In this document: positions 6,978 to 27,165 of the stretch, one piece after another
How positions within the stretch are numbered: position 1 is the first letter of the stretch
How the letters are laid out: each line of letters begins with the position of its first letter
DNA from: a virus
IMG/VR virus record: IMGVR_UViG_3300006621_000087
Coordinates: 72,897-100,061 of that record
Strand: one strand, 5' to 3'
Length of the DNA stretch: 27,165 bases
The notes under the pieces: generated by a model
Seen by the model: the letters and a program-made list of their open reading frames with translations, nothing else
What the model was told of the DNA's origin: nothing
The model's database searches: none
Position numbers and translations under genes: made by a program

Positions 6978-9900
6978 TGGCTTTTAGATCAATAAGCGGT
7001 AGCAAAATCGTTGGACAGGGCCAACCGCAACAGGTCCCTATTCAACTCGATCCGGCTCCATATACAGGTGCGGTCGCTTATGGTAGCGATGGTCTTATAT
7101 ATGTATCAAATGGAACAGTTTGGACAGCAGTAGGTGCTGGTGTTCAAGGTACTACAGGTTCAACAGGACCTGCTGGTCTTCAAGGTTTACAAGGAGATTA
7201 TGGTCCAGGATTCGATGTAATCGGTTCTGTGGCTGATGTAGACGCAGGTGGAGATCAACAATTAACTTTAAACACAGCTTTTCCTAGTGCAGCACTTGGT
7301 AACGCAGTCATCGATAATGCTGATGATGAGTTATGGGTTTATGACGGCGCAGTATGGGTAAATATTGGTTCATTTAGAGGTGTTCAAGGTTTCACTGGTA
7401 TCCAAGGATTACAAGGTAACCAAGGTACTATCGGTGAAGAAGGTATTCAGGGATCAAGAGGTTTTAGAGGTTTCCAAGGTACGCAAGGTATTCAAGGCTT
7501 TATTGGTGTTCAAGGCTTGCAAGGTATTCAAGGTAACCAAGGGACACAAGGACCACAAGGTGTGCAAGGTGTCCAAGGAATACAGGGCGACTTCGGTATT
7601 CAAGGTACGCAAGGACCACAGTCAATTCAAGGTATGCAGGGTACACAAGGTATCCAAGGTGATACAGGTTTCCAAGGTTTTAGTGGAGACGATGCAGGTC
7701 ACGTAGTAGAATTTAGAATTAAAGACGATATCGTTGAGGCTGATCCAGGCACTGGTGACATGATCATGAATGGTGCACCTAATCCTGGCGATAACTTCAG
7801 TGCAGTTACCAAAATTTGGATTGACGATGAAGCTTTCTATGGTGTAAACCTAGAAGGTCTATATACTGCTATTGCTGCTGTAGGTACTGCAAATAAAGGT
7901 ATTATGAAAGTTACTCTTCGTAATAACCCATCAAACTATATGATCTTCCAAATTACTGGAGCGACAGATAGAACAGGTTATTGGGAATTAGATGTTACTT
8001 TCTTATCAGGCGATGGTATTAAGAGCGACTTCGTTCAGTTAAATACGCCAAACCCAGGCACTACAACACAACTTCCAACATTAGTTGCGTTCAGTTTAGC
8101 TGGTGATCAAGGTATTCAAGGTACACAGGGCGTTCAAGGATTACAAGGACTTCAAGGCTTACAGGGTCTACAAGGTGTTCAAGGTCCACAATCAATTCAA
8201 GGTACACAGGGTTTTCAAGGTTTTACCGGCATTCAAGGAATGCAGGGAACTCAAGGTGTGCAAGGCTTACAAGGTGACGAAGGTTTCCAAGGTTCGCAAG
8301 GTACTCAAGGACATCAAGGTGTTCAAGGAACTCAAGGCTTCCAAGGTACTCAAGGCTTTCAAGGCACACAAGGATTCCAAGGAGTTCAAGGCTTACAGGG
8401 TGATGTAGGTATCCAAGGGTACCAAGGAACTCAAGGCTTTCAGGGACTACAGGGACTACAGGGTGCTGTTGGTTGGTATGGTGGTTTAACATATGAGTGG
8501 GCTTTCACTAATAATGTTGACCCAACTACTAATCCAGGCATTTCTTCTTGGAAAATTAATAACACTAACGTTCAAAACGCAACTAAATTAGTATTAGACG
8601 ATATTCCATTAAGTAACTATACTGGTGAACTTGATGAAATGTTTGATTGGTTAGCAGCTATTCCAGGATCTTCAAAGGGTCTTGTTGTAATAGAAAGTTT
8701 TGATGATGGCAATGGTCCTGGCGGACACCATCAAGTTGTATATGAATTCTCAGCAGTTAATTGGGATTCAAGTGGTACTAAAACTTTCGTTATATTCGAT
8801 GTTACTTATGTTGGCCAATATGGACTTAGTTCAGGTAATAGTTATAGCTGGGATTTAGATGTTATTGGTTCTGGTCATACAGCAAAAACATTAATTAACT
8901 TTGTTCCACGCGGTGATGCTGGTATTCAAGGTATTACTGGTTCTCAAGGAGCACAGGGTACTCAAGGCTTACAAGGATTACAGGGTACACAAGGTTTCCA
9001 AGGTACTCAAGGATTCCAAGGCGTACAAGGCGCTCAAGGTATTGCTGGTGCTTACGGTGGAGCTTCATTCGAATATGACTTTACTCCAAGTACAACACCT
9101 ACAGGTCCAGCTTCAGGATTAATTAAATTTAATAATACTGATCTTACTGCCGCTACAATTATGCGCATGTCAGATACAGAAACAAATGGTGCAAACCTCG
9201 ATGATTATCTAAGAAGTTTAGATGATGGTGGTTCTGCAATGCTTGGTTATATCAAGATTGTTTCTATTGCTGATCCTGCAGAATTCTTACTTTATAGTTT
9301 AACAGGTTTAGTAGAAAATTCAACTTATTATAACTTAAGTATTACGTACTTAACTAAATCTACTAATGCTGACGCAACATATTTTACAAATAATACTGAT
9401 ATAATCTTTACCTTTACAAGAGCTGGCGAACAAGGTTTGCAGGGTATTCAAGGAATACAAGGCATTCAAGGTTTCCAAGGTGACTTAGGTTTCCAAGGTT
9501 CAACCGGTGCTGGAGCTCAAGGTACAGACGGATTCCAAGGTGATCTTGGTTTCCAAGGTATTCAAGGTTTCCCAGGACCAATTGGACCACAGGGTGTTCA
9601 AGGATTTACTGGTCTTCAAGGTGGAGGCGGTTTCCAAGGTTCAACTGGTGGATTTGGTGGTGTAACATTTGATTACACATATAGTACAAATACAGCAGCT
9701 TCTGATCCAAGTAGTACAGATTCAACTGGTTATTTAAAATTCAATAATGCTTCTCTTAGCAATGCAGCTAAGTTGTTCATTGACGATAGAGATGATAACT
9801 TTGTAGATATTCAACCTTTCTTAAGAACAATCGATGATTCTACAAGTCCTATTAAAGGTCACTTTAAAGTATCAGAAAAAGCTACTCCAGCAAACTTTGT

Positions 9901-11755
9901 AATATATACAATATCTGGTTTAACAGAAAGTTCTGGTTACTTCGATGTTGATTGTGCATTTGTAAGCGGATCAGTATCGAACTTTAGTCAAGACGCAGAT
10001 GTTATTATTACGTTTGCTAGAACTGGTGACATTGGTCCAGCAGGTATTCAGGGTCTTCAAGGTTTTGAAGGATTCCAAGGATCTCAAGGTCTACAAGGTG
10101 GACCAGGTGAAGCTGGTATCCAAGGCTTCCAAGGAATGCAAGGTACTCAAGGTTTCCAAGGTCAAGCAGGATTTGTTGGTGGCGACGGTACACAAGGTTC
10201 ACAGGGTACTCAAGGTACACAATCTGTTCAAGGTATTGCTGGTGCTGATGGAGACGAAGGTTTCCAAGGATCACAAGGTACTCAAGGTTTCCAAGGTACA
10301 GCTAATCAAGGTACACAAGGTTTCCAAGGCTTCCAAGGTTTTGCTGGAGTCGGTGCTACCGGTATTCAGGGTTTCCAAGGTATTCAAGGTGACGCATTAC
10401 AAGGACACCAAGGTATTCAGGGTGACTTAGGTCCTCCAGGAGCTGGTATTCAAGGTATCCAAGGTCCACAAGGTATTGAAGGCGAAGTTGGCGACGAAGG
10501 TATTCAAGGTCTTCAAGGTTTAACTGGTATCGGTGAAGGCGGTGTTCAAGGTATCCAAGGTATCGACGGCGACGACGGTGTTCAAGGTTTCCAAGGTGAC
10601 GCCGGAGACGGTATTCAAGGTACTCAAGGTTTCCAAGGTCCAGCTGGTATCGGTGATGAGGGTGTACAGGGCTTCTTCGGTTTCCAAGGTACACAGGGTC
10701 TTATCGGTGATCTCGGTGAAGGCGGTTCTCAAGGTGTTCAAGGCTTCTTGGGTATTCAAGGTTTCCAAGGTCTTGGCGGTGGATTGGGTAATGATGGTAA
10801 CCAAGGTGCTCAAGGTTTCCAAGGTGACTTAGGTTTCCAAGGTCCTCCAGGAGTTGGTTCACAGGGTATTCAAGGTTCTCAAGGTGTTCAAGGTGATCTT
10901 GGTATTCAAGGTTTCCCAGGTCAAGGTACACAAGGTATTCAAGGTACTCAGGCTGCTCAAGGTTTCCAAGGTGAACGCGGATTCCAAGGTACTCAAGGTA
11001 TGCAGGGCTTTGGTCCTGAAGGTGGAGTTAACAACCTACAGAATATTCACGAAACAGGATTACAAGGTACTCCAGTATTCATAACAATGTTCGAAGGTGG
11101 TAACACATCTAGACCAATGATGGGTACAACTGGTCCAAACCCAGGTGGAGAATCTAACTTCTTCTATACTTCATCAGATGACGAATTAACAGTAGAAAAT
11201 ATCCAAGTTGAAGGTAACCTTACAGTTGTTGGTACATTAACAGCCGCAGGTATTGATGGTAACACAAGTTCTTTCTGGATTCCAGCTGATCAAACATTAG
11301 GATTCGGCGGTACTGGTAGTTCACCTTATGTAGAAACATTATACGAAACTTCTTCTAATGCATATGTTATTAGAGGCGATTCAGGTAACATGCCAACTGT
11401 TGCATTTAGAGGTGGCACAAACGCTGACGTATTTACATTCGATATGACAACTGGTGACTTTACTGCAACTGGTGATTTAAATGCTAACTCAGACGAAAGA
11501 TTAAAAGAGAATATCGTAACTATCGATTCTGCTCTTGAAAAAGTTTGTGATCTAAGAGGTGTTTACTTCGATATGAAATCAAGACCTGGTGTAAGAAAAG
11601 CCGGCTTTATTGCTCAAGAAATTGAAAATGTATTACCAGAAGTTGTTACTGAAGGAGATGATGGAATTAAGAGTGTTGCATATGGTAACGTTACTGCACT
11701 CATAGTAGAAGCAATTAAAGAACTTAAAGACGAAGTTAACGATCTTAAAGGCTAA
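6977..11755 (+). CDS. Collagen-like tail fibre protein with C-terminal Peptidase_S74 chaperone domain
   Basis: A complete 1592-aa protein, probably a trimeric virion fibre. Residues 1-54 form an N-terminal head. A short G-x-y stretch (55-77) and a small domain with WVYDGAVWVNIG follow. Five collagen-like arms made mostly of G-x-Q triplets (GFQ, GIQ, GTQ, GVQ, GLQ) lie at about 135-237, 376-496, 646-691, 817-891 and 1017-1349. They are separated by four related beta domains of about 125-150 residues, which share FNNxxxxxATKLxIDD-like cores and end in xFxxxGDxG. After a beta-rich region with VEGNLTVVGTLTAAG, the last 88 residues match the Peptidase_S74 intramolecular chaperone: NSDERLKENI with the putative nucleophile Ser1505, then AGFIAQEIENVLPEVV and a final helix. 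In that family the domain assists trimerisation and then cleaves itself off just before the Ser. An intrinsic terminator follows 22 nt after the stop. Confidence 0.9.
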   Translation: MAFRSISGSKIVGQGQPQQVPIQLDPAPYTGAVAYGSDGLIYVSNGTVWTAVGAGVQGTTGSTGPAGLQGLQGDYGPGFDVIGSVADVDAGGDQQLTLNTAFPSAALGNAVIDNADDELWVYDGAVWVNIGSFRGVQGFTGIQGLQGNQGTIGEEGIQGSRGFRGFQGTQGIQGFIGVQGLQGIQGNQGTQGPQGVQGVQGIQGDFGIQGTQGPQSIQGMQGTQGIQGDTGFQGFSGDDAGHVVEFRIKDDIVEADPGTGDMIMNGAPNPGDNFSAVTKIWIDDEAFYGVNLEGLYTAIAAVGTANKGIMKVTLRNNPSNYMIFQITGATDRTGYWELDVTFLSGDGIKSDFVQLNTPNPGTTTQLPTLVAFSLAGDQGIQGTQGVQGLQGLQGLQGLQGVQGPQSIQGTQGFQGFTGIQGMQGTQGVQGLQGDEGFQGSQGTQGHQGVQGTQGFQGTQGFQGTQGFQGVQGLQGDVGIQGYQGTQGFQGLQGLQGAVGWYGGLTYEWAFTNNVDPTTNPGISSWKINNTNVQNATKLVLDDIPLSNYTGELDEMFDWLAAIPGSSKGLVVIESFDDGNGPGGHHQVVYEFSAVNWDSSGTKTFVIFDVTYVGQYGLSSGNSYSWDLDVIGSGHTAKTLINFVPRGDAGIQGITGSQGAQGTQGLQGLQGTQGFQGTQGFQGVQGAQGIAGAYGGASFEYDFTPSTTPTGPASGLIKFNNTDLTAATIMRMSDTETNGANLDDYLRSLDDGGSAMLGYIKIVSIADPAEFLLYSLTGLVENSTYYNLSITYLTKSTNADATYFTNNTDIIFTFTRAGEQGLQGIQGIQGIQGFQGDLGFQGSTGAGAQGTDGFQGDLGFQGIQGFPGPIGPQGVQGFTGLQGGGGFQGSTGGFGGVTFDYTYSTNTAASDPSSTDSTGYLKFNNASLSNAAKLFIDDRDDNFVDIQPFLRTIDDSTSPIKGHFKVSEKATPANFVIYTISGLTESSGYFDVDCAFVSGSVSNFSQDADVIITFARTGDIGPAGIQGLQGFEGFQGSQGLQGGPGEAGIQGFQGMQGTQGFQGQAGFVGGDGTQGSQGTQGTQSVQGIAGADGDEGFQGSQGTQGFQGTANQGTQGFQGFQGFAGVGATGIQGFQGIQGDALQGHQGIQGDLGPPGAGIQGIQGPQGIEGEVGDEGIQGLQGLTGIGEGGVQGIQGIDGDDGVQGFQGDAGDGIQGTQGFQGPAGIGDEGVQGFFGFQGTQGLIGDLGEGGSQGVQGFLGIQGFQGLGGGLGNDGNQGAQGFQGDLGFQGPPGVGSQGIQGSQGVQGDLGIQGFPGQGTQGIQGTQAAQGFQGERGFQGTQGMQGFGPEGGVNNLQNIHETGLQGTPVFITMFEGGNTSRPMMGTTGPNPGGESNFFYTSSDDELTVENIQVEGNLTVVGTLTAAGIDGNTSSFWIPADQTLGFGGTGSSPYVETLYETSSNAYVIRGDSGNMPTVAFRGGTNADVFTFDMTTGDFTATGDLNANSDERLKENIVTIDSALEKVCDLRGVYFDMKSRPGVRKAGFIAQEIENVLPEVVTEGDDGIKSVAYGNVTALIVEAIKELKDEVNDLKG
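7379..7687 (+). repeat. Collagen-like arm 1 (G-x-Q triplets)
   Basis: About 34 Gly triplets with Gln usually in the third place and Phe, Ile, Leu, Val or Thr in the second. At DNA level this gives a 9-nt rhythm of GGT-NNN-CAA. One Gly-to-Ser interruption (QGPQSIQGMQG) lies near 7616-7640. A short additional G-x-y stretch precedes it at 7139-7210. Confidence 0.85.
8102..8464 (+). repeat. Collagen-like arm 2 (G-x-Q triplets)
   Basis: About 40 Gly triplets, dominated by QGFQGTQG and QGLQG units that are nearly identical at DNA level. It has the same PQSIQG interruption as arm 1. It lies between the first and second beta domains. Confidence 0.85.
8912..9049 (+). repeat. Collagen-like arm 3 (short)
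   Basis: About 15 triplets (QGLQGLQGTQGFQG type) between the second and third beta domains. It is the shortest of the five arms. Confidence 0.8.
9425..9649 (+). repeat. Collagen-like arm 4
   Basis: About 25 Gly triplets between the third and fourth beta domains. It is more mixed than the others, with GFPGPIGPQG-type Pro-containing triplets and a Gly-rich end (QGGGGFQGSTGG). Confidence 0.8.
10025..11023 (+). repeat. Collagen-like arm 5 (longest)
   Basis: About 110 Gly triplets, one third of all the collagen-like sequence in the gene. Acidic and Pro-containing triplets (GDA, GDE, GPP) are mixed with G-x-Q units. Irregularities include a register slip at GTANQGTQG, Gly-to-Ser at TQSVQG and Gly-to-Ala at TQAAQG. 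The repeat composition also opens long reading frames in other frames and on the - strand that are not genes. Confidence 0.85.
11489..11752 (+). other. Peptidase_S74 intramolecular chaperone domain
   Basis: This region encodes residues 1505-1592 of the collagen-like fibre. It opens with SDERLKENI, the family signature, in which the Ser is the expected autocleavage nucleophile. AGFIAQEIENVLPEVV, a VAYGNVTALIVEAIKEL helix and a terminal coiled segment follow. Size and order agree with chaperone domains known from endosialidases and tail spikes. Confidence 0.85.
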
Positions 11756-11868: not shown

Positions 11869-12198
11869 ATGAGTAGTTCCCAATTAAACATTTATATAGA
11901 CCAAGGTACAGATTTTAGGCTTACCGTCGAATTATTTGATGACGATGACTTAGATCTGCCAATAGCGAATTATTCTTTTTTCGGAGATATAAGAAAGCTA
12001 TACTCTTCAAAAAGAACCGCGGAGTTTGAATTTGAAAAAAATGAAAATGATATTACTTTAAAACTGGATGCGCTTGTTACAAGTCAGCTCAAGCCAGGAA
12101 AGTATCAATATGACGTGATTATGAGAAAACCAACCGGAGAATTGTCAAAAATAGTTGATGGAATAGTATTCGTTGTATCAACAATCACGGAGGTATAG
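11869..12198 (+). CDS. Small beta-rich structural protein, BppU-N-like (109 aa)
   Basis: A complete 109-aa protein, the first gene after the late promoter. It reads as one compact beta domain: LNIYIDQGTDFRLTVELFDD, IANYSFFGDIRKLYSS, EFEFEKNENDITLKLDA, LKPGKYQYDVIMRKPTGE, then VDGIVFVVSTITEV. The order QGTDFxLxVxLxDDD ... F/GxIRKxYSS ... LxPGxYxYDVxMxxP is common in small phage proteins encoded just before tail fibres, resembling the N-terminal domain of siphophage baseplate protein BppU. An adaptor joining fibres to the baseplate is plausible but inferred. The upstream ribosome site is weak (GAG at 11854-11856). The stop lies 2 nt before the next GTG. Confidence 0.75.
   Translation: MSSSQLNIYIDQGTDFRLTVELFDDDDLDLPIANYSFFGDIRKLYSSKRTAEFEFEKNENDITLKLDALVTSQLKPGKYQYDVIMRKPTGELSKIVDGIVFVVSTITEV
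12189..12193 (+). promoter_or_regulatory. Shine-Dalgarno GGAGG selecting the GTG start at 12201
   Basis: GGAGG lies 7 nt before GTG 12201, within the final codons of the 109-aa gene. No ATG is suitably placed nearby. The resulting N-terminus (MAVKVKVGQTKNIRLV) resembles that of fibre proteins in related phages, which supports the GTG. Confidence 0.7.
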
Positions 12199-12200
12199 GT

Positions 12201-15200
12201 GTGGCCGTAAAAGTTAAAGTTGGTCAAACTAAAAATATTCGCCTCGTAGCAGCAGGCGAAAAAAGACCGGTCATTGTACCAGATTCTATTGCATTAGGTA
12301 TAGATACAGTAGGCGAATATGTTCGCGCAATAGACGGCGGACAAGGTATTATCATAACACCAGAAAATGATACCGAATCAGCAAACCTTGTAATATCACA
12401 TTCCAATACAAGTTCAGTAGCAAACACAGTTAATAGTAGCTTACAATTTTTACAAAATGCTACTTTTGATACGTTTGGTCACGTACTTGGTGTTTCCAAT
12501 TCAGGATTAAATGCTAATAACTTTGTTGTTGCAGATGGTTTAATCAATACAAAAGATTTTACAATTGGTAACACATCAATTACGTTAGGCGAATCAACTA
12601 ACGAATTAAGAGAATTAAATCTTATAGAAGCTGGCGAATTTAGTATTACTGCTAATACTATTTCGGTACCAGCAGATCTTAACTTTGATCTCGCCAATTC
12701 AGACTCAGTAGTTAATATTGGTACTCATCGTATTATTAACGTTGAAGATCCAGTTAATCAACAAGACGTAGTTAACAAAAGATATTTAGAATTTGAATTA
12801 GATCGAGTAGAAACAACTATTAAGGTGTTCGATGACCCGATCTTGCCCACTGATGCTACCAATAAAAGATATGTAGATAATATTGTTAAAGGTCTGGTAG
12901 TACGTCCATCAGCTCTTGGTGCAACTACAGCCGATCTCGGGGCAACTTTTGAGCAAGGTAATAACACATATTCAGATACACTTACTCTACCTCCAGTCAA
13001 TGTTTTATATATCGATGATATTACTACTTGGGATATTGGAGATAACTTACTTGTAAAAGATCAAAATGATGCTACTCAAAACGGTTCATATGATCTTATC
13101 CAACAAGGTAGTGCTAATACTGCTTGGGTATTCCAAAGAACAGTTTGGTCAAACGAAGATTCAGAACTTCCAGGTTCATATGAGTTTGTTACAGATGGTA
13201 CAGTAAACGGCGGAACTGGTTGGGTTGCAACAGTTGAAGACGCATCTTCGTTCAGTATTAATGACGACGATGTTACTTGGACTCAGTTCCAAGGCGAAGG
13301 AACATTCTTAGCTGGTAATGGTTTAACACTTAATGGTACTGAATTTAATGTTGATAGTACTTTACCACTTACAGCAATTACTCCTACAGGATCTGGTGAC
13401 GTTCTTACCATTTCAGGTGAAGGAGCATTAACGTTACCAGTAGGTTTATCTACTGATCGTCCTACTGCTGTACAAGGCATGGTACGATTTAATTCTAACG
13501 ACGGGCAATTCGAGGGATACGATGGTATTGCTTGGTCAGGTCTTGGCGGTGTTATTGATGTTGACCAAGATACAAAAATTACTGCAGAGTCAAGTCCTGG
13601 CGCTGACAATGATCAAATACAAGTTTTTGCCGGTGGCACATTATCTGCAACCTTTGAAGCAAATAGAGTAGACTTTACTGGTGATGTTGGTATTGCTGGT
13701 AATCTTACAATCGGTGATCAAGATTCAGATACAGTAGCGTTTGCCGCAGACGTTACATCTCATATCATACCAGATCAAGATAGAATTTATTCTCTTGGTT
13801 CTGCATCTAAAAACTGGCATAAAATTCATGTCGATACTATTACAAGTTCTGATGAAACGATAGTATTCGATACAAATGGCGCTGTTAAAATGCCATCAGC
13901 AAATACTGCTTTAAGACCAATTGGTCAAGCAGGTATGCTACGATTTAATACAGATGAAGGAAGGTTTGAAGGATACGATGGAAGTATCTGGACAGGTCTT
14001 GCCGGATCGGTAATCGACTTAGATAAAAATACTTATATCATTGCTGAAACTTCGGCCGGTGCAAATAACAATGAACTAGATTTCTACACCGATGCCGTTC
14101 AGAGAATGCAAATCAATGATCAAGGTAATCTATTATTTGGTTCTAACCTTGATAAGCTGATAATTAATTATAACACAGGTGACATGTTTGTCAACGGTTT
14201 ATTAACAGCAACCAATGATTTAACTATTAATCCTGTTGGCGATATTAATGTTGCAAACAATACTATTACTGGTCTTGCAGAACCTGTTAATCCTGGTGAT
14301 GCAGTTAATCTTGGTTACCTTGATAATACATTCTCATCTGGTTTAACAATTATCGATCAGGCTAACACTTATACAGATGGTGTTAACTTACTTTCAAGTC
14401 CAACAATCGATCTTGGTCGTGGTCTTGAATTACAAGAATTAGATTCAGCAAATAATAGCTTTAAGATTGGTCTAGATGATCCTATGACAGGATCTGAAGG
14501 TATGTATGGTACTGATGGATTTACACCTCGTATCAGAATTACACCTGACGGTCGTATTGATTTTGCTACAGATATTCCACTGGAATTACAAGCTAACGCG
14601 ATTCCAAACTTTACAGAAACATCTCGTGATATTATTGGTCTTATGTTTACCGATGGTGTTCACGAAGGTATTATCGTTGTAAACGATGATGCTAACGACG
14701 TTATTAATCTTTTAGCAAATGACTTCAATATTACTTTAGCTGGAGATCTTAGCGGTACTTCAACAGTTTCAAGATTAACAAATACTACTGTTACTGCCTC
14801 CATTACAGCTGATTATATATCGCATGTAACAAGTGATGATGCAAATACAGGTATTATTGTTACACATACACCTGGACCAAATTCTAACTCAGCTATCGAA
14901 GTTGATTATACAGAACTTAACACAAGATATATCACAACATCTGGTGGTGAATCTTCTGGTAACATTATTGCTCCAAGATTTGTAGATTCAGATAATACTC
15001 AATTCTATGTAGATCCTAATGGAACTTCACGACTTAATAAAGCTGAATTTGGCTTTGGTTCCACATTCGCAGAAATTAAAATGCGCGATGGACCAGGAAG
15101 CTTCTCGCACTTATATTCAAGTGGCGGTAAAATTGGTTTCCTTGATAATACATTTAACTATGCTGCTTTCTCAGAAAGATCAACCGGTAACTGGGTTGTA

Positions 15201-16157
15201 CAAAACGGTAATGTATTAGCTGAAAAATTTGTAGATCACGATTCTCAAACATATTTCTTACATCCAGGCGGTACTGATTCGTACTTAAAACAAATTCAGA
15301 TACAAGATAAACTTGTTGTCGATGATGTAAGTATTGGTGGGGATGTAGGCGCAAGAACTATTAAAGTAACTTCTGGTATACTTGATATTGAATCCAATGA
15401 TGGAGTAAGTATTGACGCAGCTGGAAATGATATCGATGTTAATAGTTCTAAAATTACCAACCTTTTAAATCCAACTGCTAACCAAGACGCTGCAACTAAA
15501 TCATACGTTGATTCTGCAGCTCAAGGACTTAGAGTTATTCCTGCAGCACTCGCCGCAACAACAGCAGATCTAGGTGGATCGTTTAGTGCTGGGGTTATAA
15601 CTGCAGGATCTAACGGAGCATTTGTTCTTGATGGTGTAACTGCTTGGAGTGTTGGTGATAGAGTTCTTGTTAAAGATCAAACAAATCAAGAAGAAAATGG
15701 TTCGTATGATGTTACTGTAGTTGGTGATGCATCAACTCCTTGGGAACTTACTCGAGGCGAATACTTTAACGAATCAAGTGAAATTCCTGGATCATTCCAG
15801 TTTGTAACAGACGGTACTGTAAATATCAGTACAGGTTTTGTTGCTACCGTTACTGATGCCGAAACATTCGCTGTTAATACAGACGCTGTAGTTTGGTATC
15901 AATTCTCTGGAGCAGGTACATATACTGCCGGAGAAGCATTAACACTTACAGGTACAGAATTCTCTATTACTGATGGAGATATTGATAACGTAAAACTTGC
16001 TAATTCTTTGATAAATATCTCAGGAGAATCAGGTGCAAATACTGCTATTGCGTTAGGTGAAACCCTAACAATTGAAGGAACTGATGGAGTAGATACTACC
16101 ATTACATCCGGAAAGATTGAGATAGCAGTTAACATATTAGATGGTGGAACGTTCTAA
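12201..16157 (+). CDS. Modular tail fibre-like protein (1318 aa)
   Basis: A complete protein with a GTG start. It begins MAVKVKVGQTKNIRLV, then an FQNATFDTFGHVLGVSNS-like segment near residue 85. Two diverged copies of a larger module follow. Each starts with a DATNKRYVD or DAATKSYVD helix, continues into GLxVxPxALxATTADLG, then WxxGDxxLVKDQxxxxxNGSYD, EIPGSF/YxFVTDGTV and VWTQF/YQFSG, and ends TAGxxLTLxGTEF. They lie at about 213-384 and 1090-1270. Such modules are frequent in phage tail fibres. Between them are two copies of GMxRFNxxxGxFEGYDGxxW (near 427 and 578), each followed by VIDxDxxT. One APRFVDSDNTQFYVDPNGTS repeat (near 924) and one degenerate copy (near 1008, YFLHPGG) are of the type that dominates the gene at 18515. 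There is no signal peptide. It is a likely host-recognition or baseplate-attached fibre; the exact location is unknown. Confidence 0.82.
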   Translation: MAVKVKVGQTKNIRLVAAGEKRPVIVPDSIALGIDTVGEYVRAIDGGQGIIITPENDTESANLVISHSNTSSVANTVNSSLQFLQNATFDTFGHVLGVSNSGLNANNFVVADGLINTKDFTIGNTSITLGESTNELRELNLIEAGEFSITANTISVPADLNFDLANSDSVVNIGTHRIINVEDPVNQQDVVNKRYLEFELDRVETTIKVFDDPILPTDATNKRYVDNIVKGLVVRPSALGATTADLGATFEQGNNTYSDTLTLPPVNVLYIDDITTWDIGDNLLVKDQNDATQNGSYDLIQQGSANTAWVFQRTVWSNEDSELPGSYEFVTDGTVNGGTGWVATVEDASSFSINDDDVTWTQFQGEGTFLAGNGLTLNGTEFNVDSTLPLTAITPTGSGDVLTISGEGALTLPVGLSTDRPTAVQGMVRFNSNDGQFEGYDGIAWSGLGGVIDVDQDTKITAESSPGADNDQIQVFAGGTLSATFEANRVDFTGDVGIAGNLTIGDQDSDTVAFAADVTSHIIPDQDRIYSLGSASKNWHKIHVDTITSSDETIVFDTNGAVKMPSANTALRPIGQAGMLRFNTDEGRFEGYDGSIWTGLAGSVIDLDKNTYIIAETSAGANNNELDFYTDAVQRMQINDQGNLLFGSNLDKLIINYNTGDMFVNGLLTATNDLTINPVGDINVANNTITGLAEPVNPGDAVNLGYLDNTFSSGLTIIDQANTYTDGVNLLSSPTIDLGRGLELQELDSANNSFKIGLDDPMTGSEGMYGTDGFTPRIRITPDGRIDFATDIPLELQANAIPNFTETSRDIIGLMFTDGVHEGIIVVNDDANDVINLLANDFNITLAGDLSGTSTVSRLTNTTVTASITADYISHVTSDDANTGIIVTHTPGPNSNSAIEVDYTELNTRYITTSGGESSGNIIAPRFVDSDNTQFYVDPNGTSRLNKAEFGFGSTFAEIKMRDGPGSFSHLYSSGGKIGFLDNTFNYAAFSERSTGNWVVQNGNVLAEKFVDHDSQTYFLHPGGTDSYLKQIQIQDKLVVDDVSIGGDVGARTIKVTSGILDIESNDGVSIDAAGNDIDVNSSKITNLLNPTANQDAATKSYVDSAAQGLRVIPAALAATTADLGGSFSAGVITAGSNGAFVLDGVTAWSVGDRVLVKDQTNQEENGSYDVTVVGDASTPWELTRGEYFNESSEIPGSFQFVTDGTVNISTGFVATVTDAETFAVNTDAVVWYQFSGAGTYTAGEALTLTGTEFSITDGDIDNVKLANSLINISGESGANTAIALGETLTIEGTDGVDTTITSGKIEIAVNILDGGTF

Positions 16158-18498: not shown

Positions 18499-18506
18499 GG
18501 GGAGAG
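18499..18506 (+). promoter_or_regulatory. Ribosome binding site of the giant fibre gene
   Basis: GGGGAGAG ends 8 nt before ATG 18515 and fixes this start. An ATG at 18481 opens only a 15-codon frame in another phase. Confidence 0.7.
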
Positions 18507-18514
18507 TGAACCGA

Positions 18515-21500
18515 ATGGCCAACGATAAAAAATTCATAGTAAAGAACGGTCTGCAGACAGAAGAAAATGTCGTAATTGGATCTTCTTCAGATAACGGGTC
18601 TGATAGACTCCAGGTCACGGGTTCAACCAAGCTTACAGGTAAAGCTGAAATAACCCAAGCCATACAAAATACACCTTCTCTAAAAGTAGAAAACTCTGGT
18701 GGACCTTCCGCTGAAATTGCTCAATTTGCGGGTACATCTCAATCAATTAAAATTATCAATGATACATTTGGTGATTATCGTATTGTTAATTCTGGTCAGA
18801 ATAATGGTTTTAAATTATACGATAATACAGTTGGTGTAGAAATACTTTATAACGGTACTGTTGATTTAGATTTTAATTCATTAGGAATTGACTTTAAACG
18901 CGAACCAACATATAATGGTAACGTATTCTGGAATGCTGGTAACGATGGTGCAGGATCTGGTCTTGATGCTGACGTACTTGACGGGTTAGATTCATTACAG
19001 TTTGTTCGTTCAGATCAAGATGATACTCTTGATGGTAACTATATCATCACCGGTAATCTTACAGTTCAAGGTACACGTACTGAAGTTCAATCAGAAACAG
19101 TTTTAATTGCTGATAACCTACTCACTCTTAATAGTAATTTTACAACTGGTTCTCCAACAGAAAATGCTGGTTGGGAAGTTCTACGTGGTGGTGAAGCAAC
19201 ATCATCTTTACAATGGGATGAAACAAACGACTGGTTTAAACTTATTTCAGACGGAGTCGATTTAGGTCGTATCATTACAACAGCAGATGAAGGTTCAGGT
19301 AACTTATTTGATGCTGATACTGTCGATGGTTTAGAAGCTTCTCAATTCTTAAGATCAGACGTAGATGATACTGCGGCTGGTAATATTACTATTGAACAAG
19401 ATTTAACTGTTGGTGATGGTAATGGTACTGCATTTATTAAGATGTCTGCTTCCGGTGGTACAGAACAAATTGCGGCGACTGGCGGAGAAATTGGTTTCCT
19501 TGGAAGTGATTTTAACTTCTCGATTAAACAAAAAACTGATAATGATATCGAAGTAAGAAATGATATTTTTGCAGAAAGATTTATTGATAAAGACGCTACA
19601 ACATATTTTGTACATCCTGGCGATGCATCTGTACTTAATAACATAAACCTTGAAGGCGCATTAAGACATAATGGAGAAATTGATACATTAATTGATTTCC
19701 CAAACTCAGATCAAATTGGATTTGATTTAGGTGGTGCAAATTATGGTTTAATGACTACAACAGCATTTACCTATACTGGTAATATAATTGCCGATAAACT
19801 TATTGATAGAAATAATAACGGTTACGTAGCTGATCCTTCAGGTACTTCAACAATGCATGAAATTGGAATTGATGATAATCTTTTCCATAACGGTGATACA
19901 GATACTAAACTTTCGTTTGGTACAGGTACTATTTCATTAGCAACTAATGGTACTAACAGAGTTTCTATTGCTGACGCTTCAGTAACTATTCAACCAGATT
20001 TATATGCACCAAGACTTATTGATACAGCCGATAATACTAAGTTTGTTGATCCAGCCGGTTTATCCGAATTACATTCTGCAAACTTCTATAGTGGTGGAGC
20101 AACAAACGAAATAAACATTGGTCGTACTTCAGATCAAAGATTTAACTTTCATGTTACTGATAGTCAAGGCTATATTAGATATTATCAAGATGAAAGTGAT
20201 GCAACAGATCATAGTGTAAACTTTGAGATTATATCGTCTGGTATCGGACTTAACGAATTTAAATTTAATGCACCAATTAATGCTGGTGCAAATACTATAA
20301 CAGCTGGATTTGGTGTATTTAGTCAAGGTGCTTACGCTCCTATTTACTACGACTATGATGATGAAACATATTATGCAGATTATAATAATACTGCAGTTTC
20401 TCAAAAAATGGCCGGCCAAATTATTGGTGGTAACGGTACAGCTGCTTTACCAACATATTCATTCGTATCTGATCCTAATACTGGTATGTATAGAGGAGCG
20501 GCAGATCGACTAGCATTTAGTGCTGGTGGTAATGAAGAAATGCGAGTATATACAAGTTATGTACAAGCATTAGGTTCATTCAGAGCTCCAATATTCTATG
20601 ATTCAACAAACACTGCTTATTACTTACATCCAAACGGTGATTCACAATTAAACACTATTGATATTGATGATAATATCAGACACCGTGGCGATACAAACAC
20701 TTATATGGGTTTCCCAGCTGCAGATAGACAAGCATTTGTAACTGGTGGAACTGAAAGAATTGGAATTCAAAATACTCGAGTTGATGTTTCGGTAGATTTA
20801 TATGCTCCAAGATTAATTGATTCTGGTAATAATAATTACCTTGTAGATCCAGCCGCTGATTCAGAAATGAATACAATTAATCTTGACGATTATATTCAAC
20901 ATCGTGGAGATACAAATACACTATTTGGTTTTTCGGCTAATGACACTTTCGTAGTTAATACAAACGGCGCAACTCGATTAACAGTTAATAATAGTGCAGT
21001 AACTTCAGCACTTAATGTTTATGCTCCAAGATTCTACACAAACGATTATCTTACACATAACGGCGATACAAATAGTTATATCGGTTGGGATGCTGCTGAT
21101 CAATTTGGTGTATGGACTGGCGGCGGTAAGCGTATTCAAGTTACTGATGCTTATACGTATATTAATCAACCAGTAAGTATTGGTCAAACTGCAGCGCCAA
21201 GTTCTTTACAACACGGTATAATTGCTCCTAAGTTACACGTATCTCAAACAGATACAACCGGAACATATAACCTCGTAGCAAGATTCGAAGCTGGTGGCGA
21301 TGCTGATGCTACCGGCGCATCGATATTAATTAATCACAGTAATGATCGTGGTGTATTAATTGAAGGTGGACGAGACGTAAGTGATCGTGGTATCGGTCAT
21401 TTTGGTATTCTTAATTCATCTGGCGTAAATACAAGAGTTCTTACATTAAGACAAGATGGCGGTAATTATTGGGCTGGTATTAATAGCCAAACTCCAACTT

Positions 21501-24500
21501 CACCATTATCTGTTAGAACAACTGGTACAATGGGTGCTAACCCGTTTGCAGCTTCAAATAGAATTGTAGACTTCGGTGATGGTGGTGCAGACTTTAGATT
21601 TGCAGGAGATAATGCTGGTAACGCATTCTTAATTACTGATAATAACTTTACAATGTATAACTCAGGTGCAACCGGTATATTTGCCGCGCTTTCATCTGGC
21701 GATTTTATTATTAATAATGATTCAACAACATATACAGTTTCAGATAATACAGCACTTGTTGGTTCAATTGCTAATAATAAATTACATGTCGATGGATCAA
21801 TACAACTTAACGGTGCAAACGATGCAATCGTATTTGGTGCTGGTACTTCAACATTCTTAAAAGATGAAGAGCTAGGATTTGGCTGGGGCGGCGGTTTCTA
21901 TATGACCGAAGGAACCACAGTTAAGATTCGTAATAACAAAGCACTATATACAACTGGTAATATTACAGGTGCTCGTTTCTACGATGGTTCAGATGCTAAT
22001 TACTACTTAGATCCAGCTGGCGATTCTCAATTAAATACTATCGATATCGATGATTATATTAGACATCGTGGAGATACAAATAACTATTTCGGTTTTGCTG
22101 CTAATGATACTTTCAGAGTATGGACTGGTGGAACACAAAGATTAAACATAGATAATAACTCTGCTGATTTTGGAGTTAATGTATATGCACCTCGTTATTA
22201 CGATTCAAATGATGCTAATTATTATGTAGACCCAGCTGCTGATTCAATTATGAATAGCATTGTTCTTGATGATTGGGTTTATCATAGAGGAAATACAGAC
22301 GCTTACTTTGGTTGGGCTGGTAATAACAACTTTAAAGTATACACAAACGGAACACAACGTTTTAATATCGACGCTAACTCAGCAGACTTTGCTGTTAATG
22401 TTTATGCGCCTCGCTATTATGATTCAAACGATAATTTATATTACGTAGATCCTGCATCTACTTCAAGAATGAATAATGTTACCTTCGGTATTCCAGGCAA
22501 TGGAGCTAATACTAAAGGTCGTTACTTATCTATTGAAGGTAATACTGATTCAAGTGGAGAAGGTTCAGCTCGTATATTCTTCGCAGAACATAACTCAACA
22601 ACTGCTTCACAAGACAGATATGGTATGGCTCTTGCATATCAAGGTGGATCGGCAACAGTTAATAGTGTTACAGGTCAGCCAGTAACTCTAAATGGTTTAT
22701 CAAACGGAACTTGGGGACTGATTGGACATGATAATAGTGTCAACGGTGCTTGGGCAATGCGTGGTCCTAGAAGTGGTGGACATGTAGAAGCTCGTGGTGA
22801 CTTTAGAGCTCCAAGATTCTATGATTCAAATAACACTGCTTATTACGGTGACTTTGCTTCAACATCTATAATGAATGCTGTTCGTGTAAATCAATTACAA
22901 GTGGATGTATCTGGAAGATATATTGATTCACCATCTGGTAACTACGGTACAATTAAAGTTGAAGGTGATACTGGTGGTTGGGCAGGTTACGCAATCAGAG
23001 ATGATTGGGTCTTTATGTCAAATGGCGCGTCAGAAGCTGGTCTCTATAATGACACAAGAAATGAATGGGCTATCTTAGCACAAGATAATAACCAAACAAG
23101 AATCTTTGCAAACGGTACACATCAACTATCTGCACAAAATGGATATGGTTATGCTCCAAACAGCATGCGTTCACCAATATTCTATGATCACAATGACACA
23201 GCTTACTTCGGTGATTTTGCATCTCGTTCTAAGCTTAAAACTCTTGAGCTTGGTAATCAAGGCAACTTAACAGGTTCCGGTTCATATCCACTTGGTATCT
23301 GGCATAATAACAGATATCTTGCAGGAATGAGAAACTCTGGTGCTGGTTCAAACTATCCTTGGTTAGTACATGATAATTATAACTTTAACCAAACTGGTTC
23401 TAAAGACGCATTCATTGTACACTTCAATGGATTAGGTGATAGGTTATACTTAGATGAAGCTGGTAATATGCTTATTACTGGTGAGATGGCCGCATCAAAC
23501 TATAACCTGAATGCTGGTAACGAAAACATCTCATTAAACCCATCATACGGTACTGGTAAAACAGAATTAAAACTATTCGATGGCGCTAAGTACTGGGAAA
23601 AGAGAGCTATCCAAGCTTTACAAGGTGCTGAAGATTCTCCAACTGGTACTACGGCTGAATATGTTAAATCAACCGATTCTCCAGCTCCATCATCATATGT
23701 ATTAAGAGCTTCAGGATACAGAACATTCTATTCGGATTACATCGAAGTAGAACCTGGTGAAGAAGTTTACGGTGAAATGTATGTTAAACGAATTTCAGGA
23801 TCAGGTGGATTATTCTATTATGGTATTGAAAGATTTGATAAAGATAAGAGACCAATTGCTGGTAATACTGGTACAACATATTTTGTTGGCGGCGGTAGTA
23901 ACGTAACAAGTACTTCTTGGCAGAAGTTCTCTGGTCATACGACTATACCGACTACTCACACAGTATATAACGGCTCAGACGGCCAAGCATGTAGATATGT
24001 AAGAATAAGAATTCTTATGAATTACAGTACTGGTGGTGCTCTTCGTGAGTTCACTCCACCTATCTTAATGAGAACAAAGATTCCTTCAAGAATCCGTACA
24101 GATCAAGCAGTTTACTCACCAATCTATTATGATTCAAATGATACTGGTTATTACTTAGATCCAAACTCAACATCTAAACTGAACACAGTAGATGCAAGTA
24201 ACTTTAGAGATAGAGATAATACTGCACGATTCATGAATCCAAACTCTGGCGGTAATGTTCAGGGTACTTGGAACTGGAATAATGGTTCTATTACTAAGCT
24301 AAACAATCTAACATTTAATGATCCTGGCGTTAACGAAGGTGTTAAGTGGGAAGGTGGTAGCTTATGGCAGATTTATGAGTCACCAGATAACCAAACAAAT
24401 GCTGCAGGTAATTTACAGTTTACTTCAGGCGGTGGTAATGGTACAAGAAGATTAACACTTAACGGATCAGGCGATGCTATTGCTGGTCGTTATATGGATG

Positions 24501-27165
24501 CATACAGATTCCGCGATAGAGATAATACTGGTTATTATGTAGAACCAGCCTCTACTTCTGTAATGAACGAAATCTATCTTAATGATTACTTGCGCCATAA
24601 CGGAGATACTAATACTTATCTAAGATTCCCAGGCGGAGACGATATGCAGCTTGTTGCTGGCGGTCGTCAAATGCTTAGAATGGCTGAAGGTACAAACCCT
24701 GATAGACTAAGATTTGTAACTGATTCTAACTGGACAGACTCTTCAGGTAACTGGGCAATGTCTGGTAACATTACAGTTTCTGGTATTGGTTATTCATTAG
24801 CAAGTGCTAGATCACCAATCTTCTACGATTATAACAATACAAGTTACTATGGTGATTTTGCATCTACATCGAGAATGAATGTTATCAATGCAAATATGTA
24901 TACCTTAAATGATGGTTGGGATATTTACGATGATAATGGTGAAACATTAAATATTCGTTCTAATAACTCTGACCACGGTTATATTATATTTAGAGATTCA
25001 AATAGTACAGATTGTGGTAGAATTGAATTCGACGATGATAACTTCTTCGGTCTTAAAACTCCAAGTAACGAATGGGGTGTTTATATTGAAAGAGATGCTC
25101 GAGTTTATACTTACTATAATGGTACTTGGGAAGAAAGAACAGCTCCAGGTTATATGGAAGCTCGTGGTTCTTATCGTGCTCCAATCTTCTATGATTCAAA
25201 CGATACTGGTTGGTACGCAAATCCAAACTCTACTTCAAGATTCCGTGGATTAACAGTTAATGACGTAATTACTGCGCCAGGAGTTACAGGATACGCTGGA
25301 GCATTATTAAGAAGAGATAATAGAACTATTGAACCAAATGATGATCCAGCTGGACAATTAAAGTTTGGTTTCGGTTCTTGGAACAATAATAACACTGCAC
25401 CTTGGGCTGATTATTTACACTTAAGATCATACACAGATTCTTCCGGTGGATCAGATAACCTTCTTATGTTTAAGAAGTCTGGCCGTGGTATGCGTCTATA
25501 TCAACAGTCTTGGAACTCAGGCTCAGTATATTCAGCATACTCTGATTTAGCAATATACAATGCTAATCCAGGCGGTGGTTCAAATGCATACTTCTATGCA
25601 AGTAGATACTATGATTCAGATGATACTGGTTATTATATGGATCCAAATAGTAACTCACGCATTAAGCATCTTAAAGTTGCTGCTACAAGTGCCAATGCAA
25701 GATATGACTTTGCTGCTCTTGAAGTTAGAGAACTTAACCATGCTGGAGCTCAAAGTGCTAATGCTCAAACTGCTCCAAGAATTGGTTTCCACTGGGGTGG
25801 ACGAGTTGCATCGCAAATTATGCTTGAAACAAATGGTGAGATCCAGATTAGAAACAATCCTGGTACTGGCTACGAAGATTTCAGAGCACAGATTGGTTTC
25901 TTCCAAGGTGATGTAAGAGCCCCTCGTTATTACGATTCAAATAACACTGGTTATTATGGCGACTTTGCAAGTACGTCGGTAATGCACACACTTGATGTTC
26001 GTTCAGAAGTATACAACGATGGTTGGTTCCGTAACGATGTAAATGGTCGTGGTTTATATAACACTGCAACAGGAATGCACTGGTATTCAACTGCATCAAA
26101 TACTTGGAGAGCTTATTCTGGACAAAATACTGTAAGAATTAATATGCACACATCTGGTAATAACAGACGTGGTACATTCTATGCTAATAACAGTAACGAA
26201 GTAGGTATTCTATCACAAGACGATGGTTGGGCGTTACAAACCACTAACTCTAAAGTAGATTCACATCATAACTTCTATGCTCCTATCATGTACGATAGAA
26301 ATGATAGTAACTACTATATGGATCCAAATGGTACATCTAGATTAAATCAAGTTAGAGCAAACTACTTTACAAATGATGGTAGTGTATCTTCAAATGATCT
26401 ATTTGGTATGTATTGGTCTTCAGATAGATCACAAGCATATGCAATCTTTAGAGAATCAGGTGGCTGGTCTTACCCATATCCTGATCTAAGAATTGCTTTC
26501 CATACAGGTATTAAGTTTGGTGCAAACGCTTCTTACCAAGGTATGCGTTTCTACACTGACTATAATATGTCCGGTCAGGTTATGTCGATTAACAACGGTT
26601 CTGATCCACTTGGTGGCGGTAACGTTTATGTTAACAATAACCTACAAGCTGGTTCATCGTTAAGAGCACCAATCTTCTACGATTCAAATAACACGTCTTA
26701 TTACTTCGATGGCGCATCGGCTCACAGTACAAGGTTTGAGGGTGTAAGTGCTAGAACAATGGCATACACTAACAAACCTGGTCATACAAGAAACTCTGGT
26801 GATTATTACAGATCGAGACCAAGACAAACTAGTGACAGTAACTATTGGACTGGTGCTTCAGGTTGGGGACGTCAGGATATGAACGTCGTTGGTACTTGGG
26901 GTTCAGGCTTTATCGATTCTTGGTCAAACCCACCAAACCAGCCTTCAGGTACATCACACTGGGTTGGTACTCAGGCTTATCACTATAGAAGTTCTAATAC
27001 TTCTGGTTATGGTTGGCAGATGGTTGGTGGTCCAATTGAGAACTTAAGATTCCGTTCTTCTTGGGCTGGTTGGAGATCTTGGAGAACAATTCCAATGCTT
27101 GGTGTTAACAATGGTAACGGAGCTGCAATGTATGCAAGCATCTATTACGATTCAAATAACACTGG
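18515..27165 (+). CDS. Giant cassette-built tail fibre protein (3'-partial, at least 2883 aa)
   Basis: The frame stays open from ATG 18515 to the window edge (2883 codons plus 2 nt). The N-terminus (MANDKKFIVKNGLQTEENVV) is a common fibre start in marine T4-like phages. GAGSGLDADVLDG and LTVQGTRTEVQSETVLIADN follow, then a domain with PTENAGWEVLRGG. From about residue 353 to the end, about 20 copies of a short motif recur: xAPxFYDSNNTxYYxDPxS, then TSxxN. Early copies are joined to a second unit with DDYIRHRGDTNxYFGF and VWTGGTQRLNI. Later copies alternate with different beta cassettes. One at about residues 1691-1862 looks like a carbohydrate-binding-type jelly roll (SDYIEVEPGEEVYGEMYVK, then GIERFDKDKRPI). 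One near 2746-2865 ends GWQMVGG, LRFRSSW, WRSWRTI, like a pyocin-knob domain. No enzyme motif is seen. It is the likely main host-contact fibre; the C-terminal tip lies outside the window. Confidence 0.88.
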   Translation, partial: MANDKKFIVKNGLQTEENVVIGSSSDNGSDRLQVTGSTKLTGKAEITQAIQNTPSLKVENSGGPSAEIAQFAGTSQSIKIINDTFGDYRIVNSGQNNGFKLYDNTVGVEILYNGTVDLDFNSLGIDFKREPTYNGNVFWNAGNDGAGSGLDADVLDGLDSLQFVRSDQDDTLDGNYIITGNLTVQGTRTEVQSETVLIADNLLTLNSNFTTGSPTENAGWEVLRGGEATSSLQWDETNDWFKLISDGVDLGRIITTADEGSGNLFDADTVDGLEASQFLRSDVDDTAAGNITIEQDLTVGDGNGTAFIKMSASGGTEQIAATGGEIGFLGSDFNFSIKQKTDNDIEVRNDIFAERFIDKDATTYFVHPGDASVLNNINLEGALRHNGEIDTLIDFPNSDQIGFDLGGANYGLMTTTAFTYTGNIIADKLIDRNNNGYVADPSGTSTMHEIGIDDNLFHNGDTDTKLSFGTGTISLATNGTNRVSIADASVTIQPDLYAPRLIDTADNTKFVDPAGLSELHSANFYSGGATNEINIGRTSDQRFNFHVTDSQGYIRYYQDESDATDHSVNFEIISSGIGLNEFKFNAPINAGANTITAGFGVFSQGAYAPIYYDYDDETYYADYNNTAVSQKMAGQIIGGNGTAALPTYSFVSDPNTGMYRGAADRLAFSAGGNEEMRVYTSYVQALGSFRAPIFYDSTNTAYYLHPNGDSQLNTIDIDDNIRHRGDTNTYMGFPAADRQAFVTGGTERIGIQNTRVDVSVDLYAPRLIDSGNNNYLVDPAADSEMNTINLDDYIQHRGDTNTLFGFSANDTFVVNTNGATRLTVNNSAVTSALNVYAPRFYTNDYLTHNGDTNSYIGWDAADQFGVWTGGGKRIQVTDAYTYINQPVSIGQTAAPSSLQHGIIAPKLHVSQTDTTGTYNLVARFEAGGDADATGASILINHSNDRGVLIEGGRDVSDRGIGHFGILNSSGVNTRVLTLRQDGGNYWAGINSQTPTSPLSVRTTGTMGANPFAASNRIVDFGDGGADFRFAGDNAGNAFLITDNNFTMYNSGATGIFAALSSGDFIINNDSTTYTVSDNTALVGSIANNKLHVDGSIQLNGANDAIVFGAGTSTFLKDEELGFGWGGGFYMTEGTTVKIRNNKALYTTGNITGARFYDGSDANYYLDPAGDSQLNTIDIDDYIRHRGDTNNYFGFAANDTFRVWTGGTQRLNIDNNSADFGVNVYAPRYYDSNDANYYVDPAADSIMNSIVLDDWVYHRGNTDAYFGWAGNNNFKVYTNGTQRFNIDANSADFAVNVYAPRYYDSNDNLYYVDPASTSRMNNVTFGIPGNGANTKGRYLSIEGNTDSSGEGSARIFFAEHNSTTASQDRYGMALAYQGGSATVNSVTGQPVTLNGLSNGTWGLIGHDNSVNGAWAMRGPRSGGHVEARGDFRAPRFYDSNNTAYYGDFASTSIMNAVRVNQLQVDVSGRYIDSPSGNYGTIKVEGDTGGWAGYAIRDDWVFMSNGASEAGLYNDTRNEWAILAQDNNQTRIFANGTHQLSAQNGYGYAPNSMRSPIFYDHNDTAYFGDFASRSKLKTLELGNQGNLTGSGSYPLGIWHNNRYLAGMRNSGAGSNYPWLVHDNYNFNQTGSKDAFIVHFNGLGDRLYLDEAGNMLITGEMAASNYNLNAGNENISLNPSYGTGKTELKLFDGAKYWEKRAIQALQGAEDSPTGTTAEYVKSTDSPAPSSYVLRASGYRTFYSDYIEVEPGEEVYGEMYVKRISGSGGLFYYGIERFDKDKRPIAGNTGTTYFVGGGSNVTSTSWQKFSGHTTIPTTHTVYNGSDGQACRYVRIRILMNYSTGGALREFTPPILMRTKIPSRIRTDQAVYSPIYYDSNDTGYYLDPNSTSKLNTVDASNFRDRDNTARFMNPNSGGNVQGTWNWNNGSITKLNNLTFNDPGVNEGVKWEGGSLWQIYESPDNQTNAAGNLQFTSGGGNGTRRLTLNGSGDAIAGRYMDAYRFRDRDNTGYYVEPASTSVMNEIYLNDYLRHNGDTNTYLRFPGGDDMQLVAGGRQMLRMAEGTNPDRLRFVTDSNWTDSSGNWAMSGNITVSGIGYSLASARSPIFYDYNNTSYYGDFASTSRMNVINANMYTLNDGWDIYDDNGETLNIRSNNSDHGYIIFRDSNSTDCGRIEFDDDNFFGLKTPSNEWGVYIERDARVYTYYNGTWEERTAPGYMEARGSYRAPIFYDSNDTGWYANPNSTSRFRGLTVNDVITAPGVTGYAGALLRRDNRTIEPNDDPAGQLKFGFGSWNNNNTAPWADYLHLRSYTDSSGGSDNLLMFKKSGRGMRLYQQSWNSGSVYSAYSDLAIYNANPGGGSNAYFYASRYYDSDDTGYYMDPNSNSRIKHLKVAATSANARYDFAALEVRELNHAGAQSANAQTAPRIGFHWGGRVASQIMLETNGEIQIRNNPGTGYEDFRAQIGFFQGDVRAPRYYDSNNTGYYGDFASTSVMHTLDVRSEVYNDGWFRNDVNGRGLYNTATGMHWYSTASNTWRAYSGQNTVRINMHTSGNNRRGTFYANNSNEVGILSQDDGWALQTTNSKVDSHHNFYAPIMYDRNDSNYYMDPNGTSRLNQVRANYFTNDGSVSSNDLFGMYWSSDRSQAYAIFRESGGWSYPYPDLRIAFHTGIKFGANASYQGMRFYTDYNMSGQVMSINNGSDPLGGGNVYVNNNLQAGSSLRAPIFYDSNNTSYYFDGASAHSTRFEGVSARTMAYTNKPGHTRNSGDYYRSRPRQTSDSNYWTGASGWGRQDMNVVGTWGSGFIDSWSNPPNQPSGTSHWVGTQAYHYRSSNTSGYGWQMVGGPIENLRFRSSWAGWRSWRTIPMLGVNNGNGAAMYASIYYDSNNT
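23585..24100 (+). other. Putative carbohydrate-binding-like beta domain in the giant fibre
   Basis: A long cassette without the fibre repeat, located between the repeat copies at 23165 and 24118. The series YWEKRAIQALQG, YVLRASGYRTFYSDYIEV, EEVYGEMYVKRISGSGG, GIERFDKDKRPI, TSWQKFSGHTTIP and CRYVRIRILMNYSTGG alternates strands and aromatic residues as in jelly-roll sugar-binding modules. The assignment rests on pattern only. Confidence 0.45.
26750..27110 (+). other. Putative pyocin-knob-like domain in the giant fibre
   Basis: A cassette between the last two repeat copies. The Trp-rich stretch (SGWGRQDM, GTWGSGFIDSW, SHWVGTQAYHY, GYGWQMVGG, LRFRSSWAGWRSWRTI) matches the general layout of knob domains in phage and pyocin fibres, which end in W-x-x-W-R. 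A receptor-binding role is inferred. Confidence 0.5.

Follow-up and report, generated by a model that had tools for sequence, protein, structure and literature searches.

Tetart is said to have described, in 1998, recombination between conserved motifs in the fibres of T-even phages. There is ample documentation of shuffled domains in the receptor-binding proteins of phages, including one survey (PMC10684548). In T4-like aquatic phages, the pelagi-/cyanomyophage host recognition cluster is a hypervariable fibre region within the structural module (PMC7029224). Among plasmids, the PilV shufflon varies by site-specific inversion, carried out by Rci at sfx sites, and in the IncI2 plasmid TP114 the constant part of PilV spans 345 aa and is followed by a variable end (PMC9045228). 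The gene described here resembles the T-even case in that it encodes a T4-like fibre, short conserved motifs flank the segments that appear to be exchanged, and exchange occurs between relatives.

The giant tail-fibre gene, its motif and its cassettes

The window, by which we mean the whole stretch of 27,165 nucleotides analysed here, lies at the end of a virus record of 100,061 bp, of which it forms the last 27 kb. The record carries T4-type baseplate genes (a gp6-type wedge, phrog_219, E 4e-139, and a hub/lysozyme, phrog_430), by which its genome is that of a T4-like myovirus; the best phage match is Sinorhizobium phage phiN3, at 40%. The window closes within a giant gene whose 3' end is open at the contig end and which has 2886 codons when counted from 18506; the ATG at 18515 is the more likely start over the GTG at 18506. 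In the nearest relative, L021, the gene continues about 300 aa past the window's end. The first-pass annotation had placed the fibre at 19571-27165, and we found that the motif array does span this interval, but the gene begins upstream of it (18506/18515) and overruns the contig end. The gene matches PHROG tail fiber families 18345 (E 1.7e-28) and 972, whereas Pfam and NCBIfam searches gave no match, megablast of phage records returned nothing, and no solved relative of the protein was found. Its homology and its position among fibre genes mark the product as a phage tail fibre protein, and its neighbours encode collagen/S74, T7-tail-N-like and other fibre proteins.

Three of the genes that precede it have features of their own. 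A 2180-aa fibre/structural protein (13-6555) has a match to the Pfam Phycobilisome family (PF00502) at aa 39-158 that passes the curated cut-off (E 2.8e-9), and the first 200 aa of this protein have no sequence relative in phage records or solved structures. A 1592-aa collagen-repeat fibre (6977-11755) ends in a Peptidase_S74 chaperone, and the adjoining fibre gene (12201-16157) holds a single strong copy of the giant gene's motif near 14970 (36 bits).

To locate the motif in the giant gene (Table 1), we used a profile built from the gene itself, with 200 shuffled copies of its protein as the control. Between 19571 and the contig end, 20 copies scored 8 bits or more and 16 of these scored 15 bits or more, and no match in the 200 shuffled proteins reached 8 bits, which bears out the initial count of about 20 copies of YDSNNTxYYxDP. 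The motif is about 23 aa long and its rough consensus is APxFYDSNNTxYYxDPxSTSxMN.

Up to 22474, the spacers between motif copies are largely repeats of one family of about 48 aa (family 01), and beyond them, starting at 22481, come 11 spacers in a row, each of a different cassette family. The spacers had been called unrelated from about 22450; as families they are indeed all different, but profile comparison detects remote kinship among some of them, between families 02 and 10 at 98.9% probability and between 04 and 10 and between 10 and 21 at 85-88%. Cassette 03 is predicted to form a jelly roll, as had been proposed for one of the cassettes. Its model has a pLDDT of about 92 for much of the segment spanning residues 160-300 and matches CBM22, CBM4, CBM16 and phage tail structures; the cassette is thus a predicted carbohydrate-binding-module-like jelly roll. 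Cassettes 06 and 11, whose model bears on the knob-like domain that had also been proposed, gave a poor monomer model (pLDDT 57), and in both monomer models the motif takes the form of two short strands at low confidence. The gene may be a store of receptor-binding domains.

Table 1. Positions of the giant gene, its motif copies and its spacers in the window.
Feature	Position	Strand	Basis or remark
Giant tail-fibre gene	18515..27163	+	ORF call; PHROG tail fiber matches; starts GTG 18506 or ATG 18515, MANDKKFIVKNGL
N-terminal module, family 05, conserved	18515..19564	+	in 43 panel genes, always first
Motif copy 1, degenerate	19571..19639	+	AERFIDKDATTYFVHPGDASVLN, motif profile
Motif copy 2, degenerate	19790..19858	+	motif profile
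Motif copy 3	20336..20404	+	35 bits
Motif copy 4	20585..20653	+	45 bits
Shaft repeat, family 01, 48 aa	20660..20803	+	cassette clustering
Motif copy 5	20804..20872	+	18 bits
Family 19 spacer: shaft repeats and longer domain	20879..21964	+	cassette clustering
Motif copy 6	21968..22036	+	28 bits
Shaft repeat, family 01	22040..22186	+	cassette clustering
Motif copy 7	22187..22255	+	39.5 bits
Shaft repeat, family 01	22262..22405	+	cassette clustering
Motif copy 8	22406..22474	+	46 bits
Cassette family 21	22481..22807	+	cassette clustering
Motif copy 9	22808..22876	+	49 bits
Cassette family 02	22883..23170	+	family 03 next after it in 45 genes
Motif copy 10	23171..23239	+	45 bits
Cassette family 03, 290 aa, predicted CBM-like jelly roll	23246..24115	+	in 53 panel genes
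Motif copy 11	24116..24184	+	51 bits
Motif copy 12, weak	24194..24262	+	10 bits
Cassette family 08	24263..24499	+	holds left edge of tract replaced in L022 lineage
Motif copy 13	24500..24568	+	45 bits
Cassette family 23	24575..24811	+	family 29 instead in L022/L023/L146
Motif copy 14	24812..24880	+	right edge of replaced tract exactly at start of this copy
Cassette family 10	24887..25177	+	cassette clustering
Motif copy 15	25178..25246	+	49 bits
Cassette family 16	25253..25597	+	cassette clustering
Motif copy 16	25598..25666	+	44 bits
Cassette family 39	25673..25918	+	cassette clustering
Motif copy 17	25919..25987	+	52 bits
Cassette family 04	25994..26278	+	in 40 panel genes, many different neighbours
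Motif copy 18	26279..26347	+	47 bits
Cassette family 11	26354..26665	+	cassette clustering
Motif copy 19	26666..26734	+	40 bits
Cassette family 06, Trp-rich	26741..27133	+	structure model poor
Motif copy 20, truncated by contig end	27134..27165	+	motif profile

Cassette turnover among relatives

Three IMG/VR scans yielded 102 ORFs carrying three motifs or more, and the 66 non-redundant ones form our panel; these 66 genes, and the pairs drawn from them, are phylogenetically non-independent. We cut the panel genes at the motif and grouped the resulting cassettes by average linkage, since under single linkage the shaft repeats drew most of them together. The 66 genes gave 1068 cassettes in 119 families, 90 of them with more than one member, and many families have several different left and right neighbours. 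The plan of the gene is constant: N-terminal module 05 (43 genes) is followed by shaft repeats of family 01, usually by the 02-03 pair, then by a variable row and finally by a cap. The caps are of several kinds, including families 15 (with Peptidase_S74), 18 and 28. Judged from the near relative L021, the window's type is cap 18, its own cap lying past the contig end; the L021 cap has no Pfam match, and S74 caps other homologues (for example L029, L015 and L004). In one homologue (L091, 4560-13125), the gene is broken into four overlapping ORFs, suggesting frameshifts that may reflect error or decay.

At 92% DNA identity, L003/L021 is the nearest relative, and we found 5.5 kb of collinearity between it and the window. 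L022 and L023 (81%) are collinear with the window except that cassette 23 (24575-24811) gives way to a cassette of family 29, which is also found in L024. The same two cassette states occur in a different assembly, in which L145 is 99.0% identical to L021 and L146 is 99.9% identical to L022/L023. A single Rhodobacteraceae metagenome bin (Water_Bin34) contains three phage contigs that carry this fibre, L145, L146 and L147, of which L145 and L146 have the alternative cassettes; this is a weak hint as to host and co-existence.

When we compared pairs of genes by DNA identity, the share of differing cassettes was 0.05 at identities of at least 90% (8 pairs, of which two and not three differ, as the apparent difference between L089 and L092, collinear over their whole length, is a motif-detection artefact), 0.10 at 85-90% (8 pairs), 0.24 at 80-85% (8 pairs) and 0.60 at 75-80% (40 pairs). 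L098 and L102 have two replaced cassettes at 97% identity, and the collinear closest pairs are the window and L003, L070 and L071, and L079 and L080. Synechococcus phage DSL-LC03, an isolate whose genome is complete, also has five motif copies; its cassettes are related to panel families 06 (52%) and 25 (82%), and its fibre has a different backbone and its own cassette order. The first-pass annotation had proposed comparing the gene in related phages, and among the 66 non-redundant homologues we found cassettes gained, lost, replaced and reordered; the pattern that it had held to be contrary, with the same cassettes in the same order and point changes only, is seen just in very close pairs. 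At the level of sequence, these comparisons show that relatives share a pool of cassette families and differ by whole-cassette replacement, insertion, deletion and reordering.

Exchange boundaries and the DNA of the motif

Of 3904 binned ends of DNA similarity between genes, 31.6% lie inside the motif, as compared to 15.6% when the motifs are shifted (at most 17.6% in 200 draws). At order-changing junctions, defined as joins of cassettes that are non-adjacent in the partner gene, the midpoint lies in the motif in 78% of 134 cases as compared to 23% expected (highest of 500 draws, 35%). A stricter set places 45 of 49 junctions in the motif; because that set allows little gap and could favour similar motifs, the relaxed set (n = 134) gives our main figure. 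Exchange boundaries thus lie at conserved motifs between relatives, as in the T-even gp37/gp38 system.

In the mean of 74 junctions, the upstream partner shows an identity of 0.75-0.76, the level of the true counterpart, as far as motif nt 30, after which the value declines to 0.63, 0.50 and 0.35 (by nt 60-75), and the downstream partner attains 0.74 by nt 90; random motif pairs have baselines of 0.53, 0.62, 0.58, 0.48 and 0.39 in the five motif bins. Since upstream identity drops after nt 30 and downstream identity rises by nt 90, the average switch of partner is located inside the motif, around its second half. Junction homology was measured on registered motif copies; unregistered copies had given a two-peaked result.

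In pairs of at least 84% identity, 54% of 109 likelihood change points fall in the motif as compared to 23% (highest of 300 draws, 40%), and several recent exchanges have one or both ends in neighbouring homologous cassettes. Between L098 and L102, one replacement runs from motif to motif and the other overshoots its motifs by about 25 aa at the front and 45 aa at the back. In the comparison of the window with L022, the replaced tract starts inside cassette 08 and stops at motif copy 14. Breakpoints inside the motif, as had been anticipated, therefore account for the large majority of order-changing junctions but for only about half of the refined breakpoints in close pairs, and the motif is a favoured, not an exclusive, breakpoint site.

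One alternative that we consider unlikely, though it deserves weight, is that joining was illegitimate, with crossovers falling anywhere and only those at domain joints yielding a working fibre. Boundaries do coincide with protein domain joints and DNA homology at them is weak; however, most junction motifs stay in register, the average identity profile changes partner inside the motif, and the motifs of junction partners resemble each other slightly more than random copies do, so that homology seems to help.

Another possibility, that the motif is kept up as DNA to act as a recombination site in cassette swaps, seems to us improbable. The motif had been described as nearly constant at the DNA level, which does not hold: in the first 48 nt, copies in the window have a mean pairwise identity of 58% and a maximum of 79%, and their synonymous codon agreement is barely above chance (0.544 as compared to 0.519 after synonymous shuffling, a non-significant z of 1.2). 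A small excess in codon agreement over 59 genes (0.507 as compared to 0.472, with 19 genes above z = 2) would favour maintenance, as would junction motif partners that are slightly more alike than other copies (0.641 as compared to 0.600, p ~3e-6, for 81 non-independent pairs), which lends only modest support to a dependence of exchange on homology. In contrast, random motif pairs in the first three bins have identities of 0.46-0.53 within one gene and 0.45-0.51 between genes, and because sharing a gene does not make copies more alike, we see no sign of concerted evolution; several exchanges also ignore the motif. Of the double role first suggested for the motif, that of a structural joint agrees with the strong enrichment of boundaries, whereas that of a homology patch is at odds with the lack of any special constancy of its DNA.

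It is very improbable that the motif repeats led assemblers to fuse different strains. Several contigs, the window's among them, do break inside this gene, and the window's last 23 bases recur elsewhere in the window; however, independent assembly gave the same two cassette states at 99-99.9% identity, the complete-genome isolate has the motif and related cassettes, and no exact in-register repeat shared by motif copies of the window is longer than 21 bp. The independent contigs that break inside the gene do so at 27134-27165 of the window, within a motif copy, and at the starts of L021, L022, L145 and L146; such breaks are expected if strains sharing cassettes co-occur.

Proposed mechanism and comparison with known systems

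We found no tyrosine recombinase (PF00589) in the window's contig or in three relatives of 156-221 kb, contigs that may be incomplete, and no serine recombinase (PF00239) in the three relatives. There was also no reverse transcriptase (PF00078) in the window's contig or the three relatives, and thus none nearby of the kind that marks a diversity-generating retroelement, and no Rci-type site-specific recombinase in the same element, as a shufflon would have. A RecA-family match is present in two of the three relatives and absent from the window's partial contig. Because close relatives are collinear, the locus does not look like a phase-variation switch. Site-specific shuffling, as by a plasmid shufflon or phage invertase, is hardly credible, since the presence of the motif in the pilus-tip adhesin of shufflons (PilV), ahead of the C-terminal end, is set against the absence of these recombinases from the window's contig (tyrosine) and the three larger relatives (tyrosine and serine), closest relatives that are collinear and not freely rearranged, and cassettes that all have one orientation and one reading frame.

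Homologous recombination with selection for fold-preserving joins would fit these data best. We consider it probable that the gene encodes a long modular fibre in which the motif is a structural joint where homologous recombination between phages gives viable fibres. Such a fibre would consist of an N-terminal anchor, a repeat shaft, about 8-14 different cassettes and a C-terminal cap, with the motif of about 23 aa, probably a small beta-hairpin, as the standard joint between cassettes. Exchange would take place by ordinary phage homologous recombination between co-infecting relatives, with the crossover in whatever homology exists, either in neighbouring cassettes or, where the neighbours differ, in the joint. 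Crossovers in the joint would survive because reading frame and fold are kept, and the motif would be mainly a protein-level joint that makes exchange tolerable, its short DNA homology being only incidental. Recombination at the motif itself would need a permissive recombinase, because the copies share little DNA (58% over 48 nt). The cassettes may bind, or help present, host surface glycans. If they bind receptors, the list of cassettes would be a readable host-range code for uncultured aquatic phages, and the joint would be a natural rule that keeps modular fibres functional during change.

The motif is found once in the PilV shufflon adhesins of Pseudomonas and Bosea plasmids (L143, 2640-4067; L144, 2502-4028), upstream of the C-terminal region; in PilV of the Pseudomonas plasmid it lies at aa 293-315 (APIFYDDNDRTYYVDPNQTSVLN). 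Because it is present in these plasmid pilus-tip adhesins, the joint is in use outside phages. A broader and more tentative reading, which we put forward as possible and somewhat doubtful, is that the motif is a general adhesin joint, common to the fibres of phages and the pilus-tip adhesins of plasmids. Cassettes that end in the motif could then be joined functionally in any pairing, which would give a combinatorial fibre with about 10 slots and a pool of roughly 100 interchangeable receptor-binding cassettes, swapped on the time scale of strain divergence. The PilV shufflon has the same motif and a variable C-terminal adhesin of its own, but it has one variable end, a single motif copy and inversion by Rci, and we found no such enzyme here.

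In the host recognition cluster of pelagi- and cyanomyophages, radical SAM genes lie nearby, as they do downstream in L021, but variation there is at the level of genes and here it concerns cassettes inside a gene (PMC7029224). In L021, the three radical SAM genes are in tandem (11941-14943), downstream of the fibre gene. The survey of receptor-binding proteins likewise describes recent domain shuffling between related phages; in the accessible part of that source, it is agnostic on mechanism and concerns terminal domain exchanges, with no repeated joint motif (PMC10684548).

Fibre exchange is best known at the tip, and in T-even fibres it concerns the terminal adhesin or its loops. In contrast, about 8-14 internal cassettes lie here in one giant gene of 9-12 kb with a different motif, and whole cassettes from a pool of about 100 families appear to be exchanged, inserted, deleted and reordered along it, with a turnover rate and a joint that can be measured from sequence. 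As compared to the open-access literature, what this locus would add to the known systems is the internal exchange of many cassettes, with its turnover and its joint both measured.
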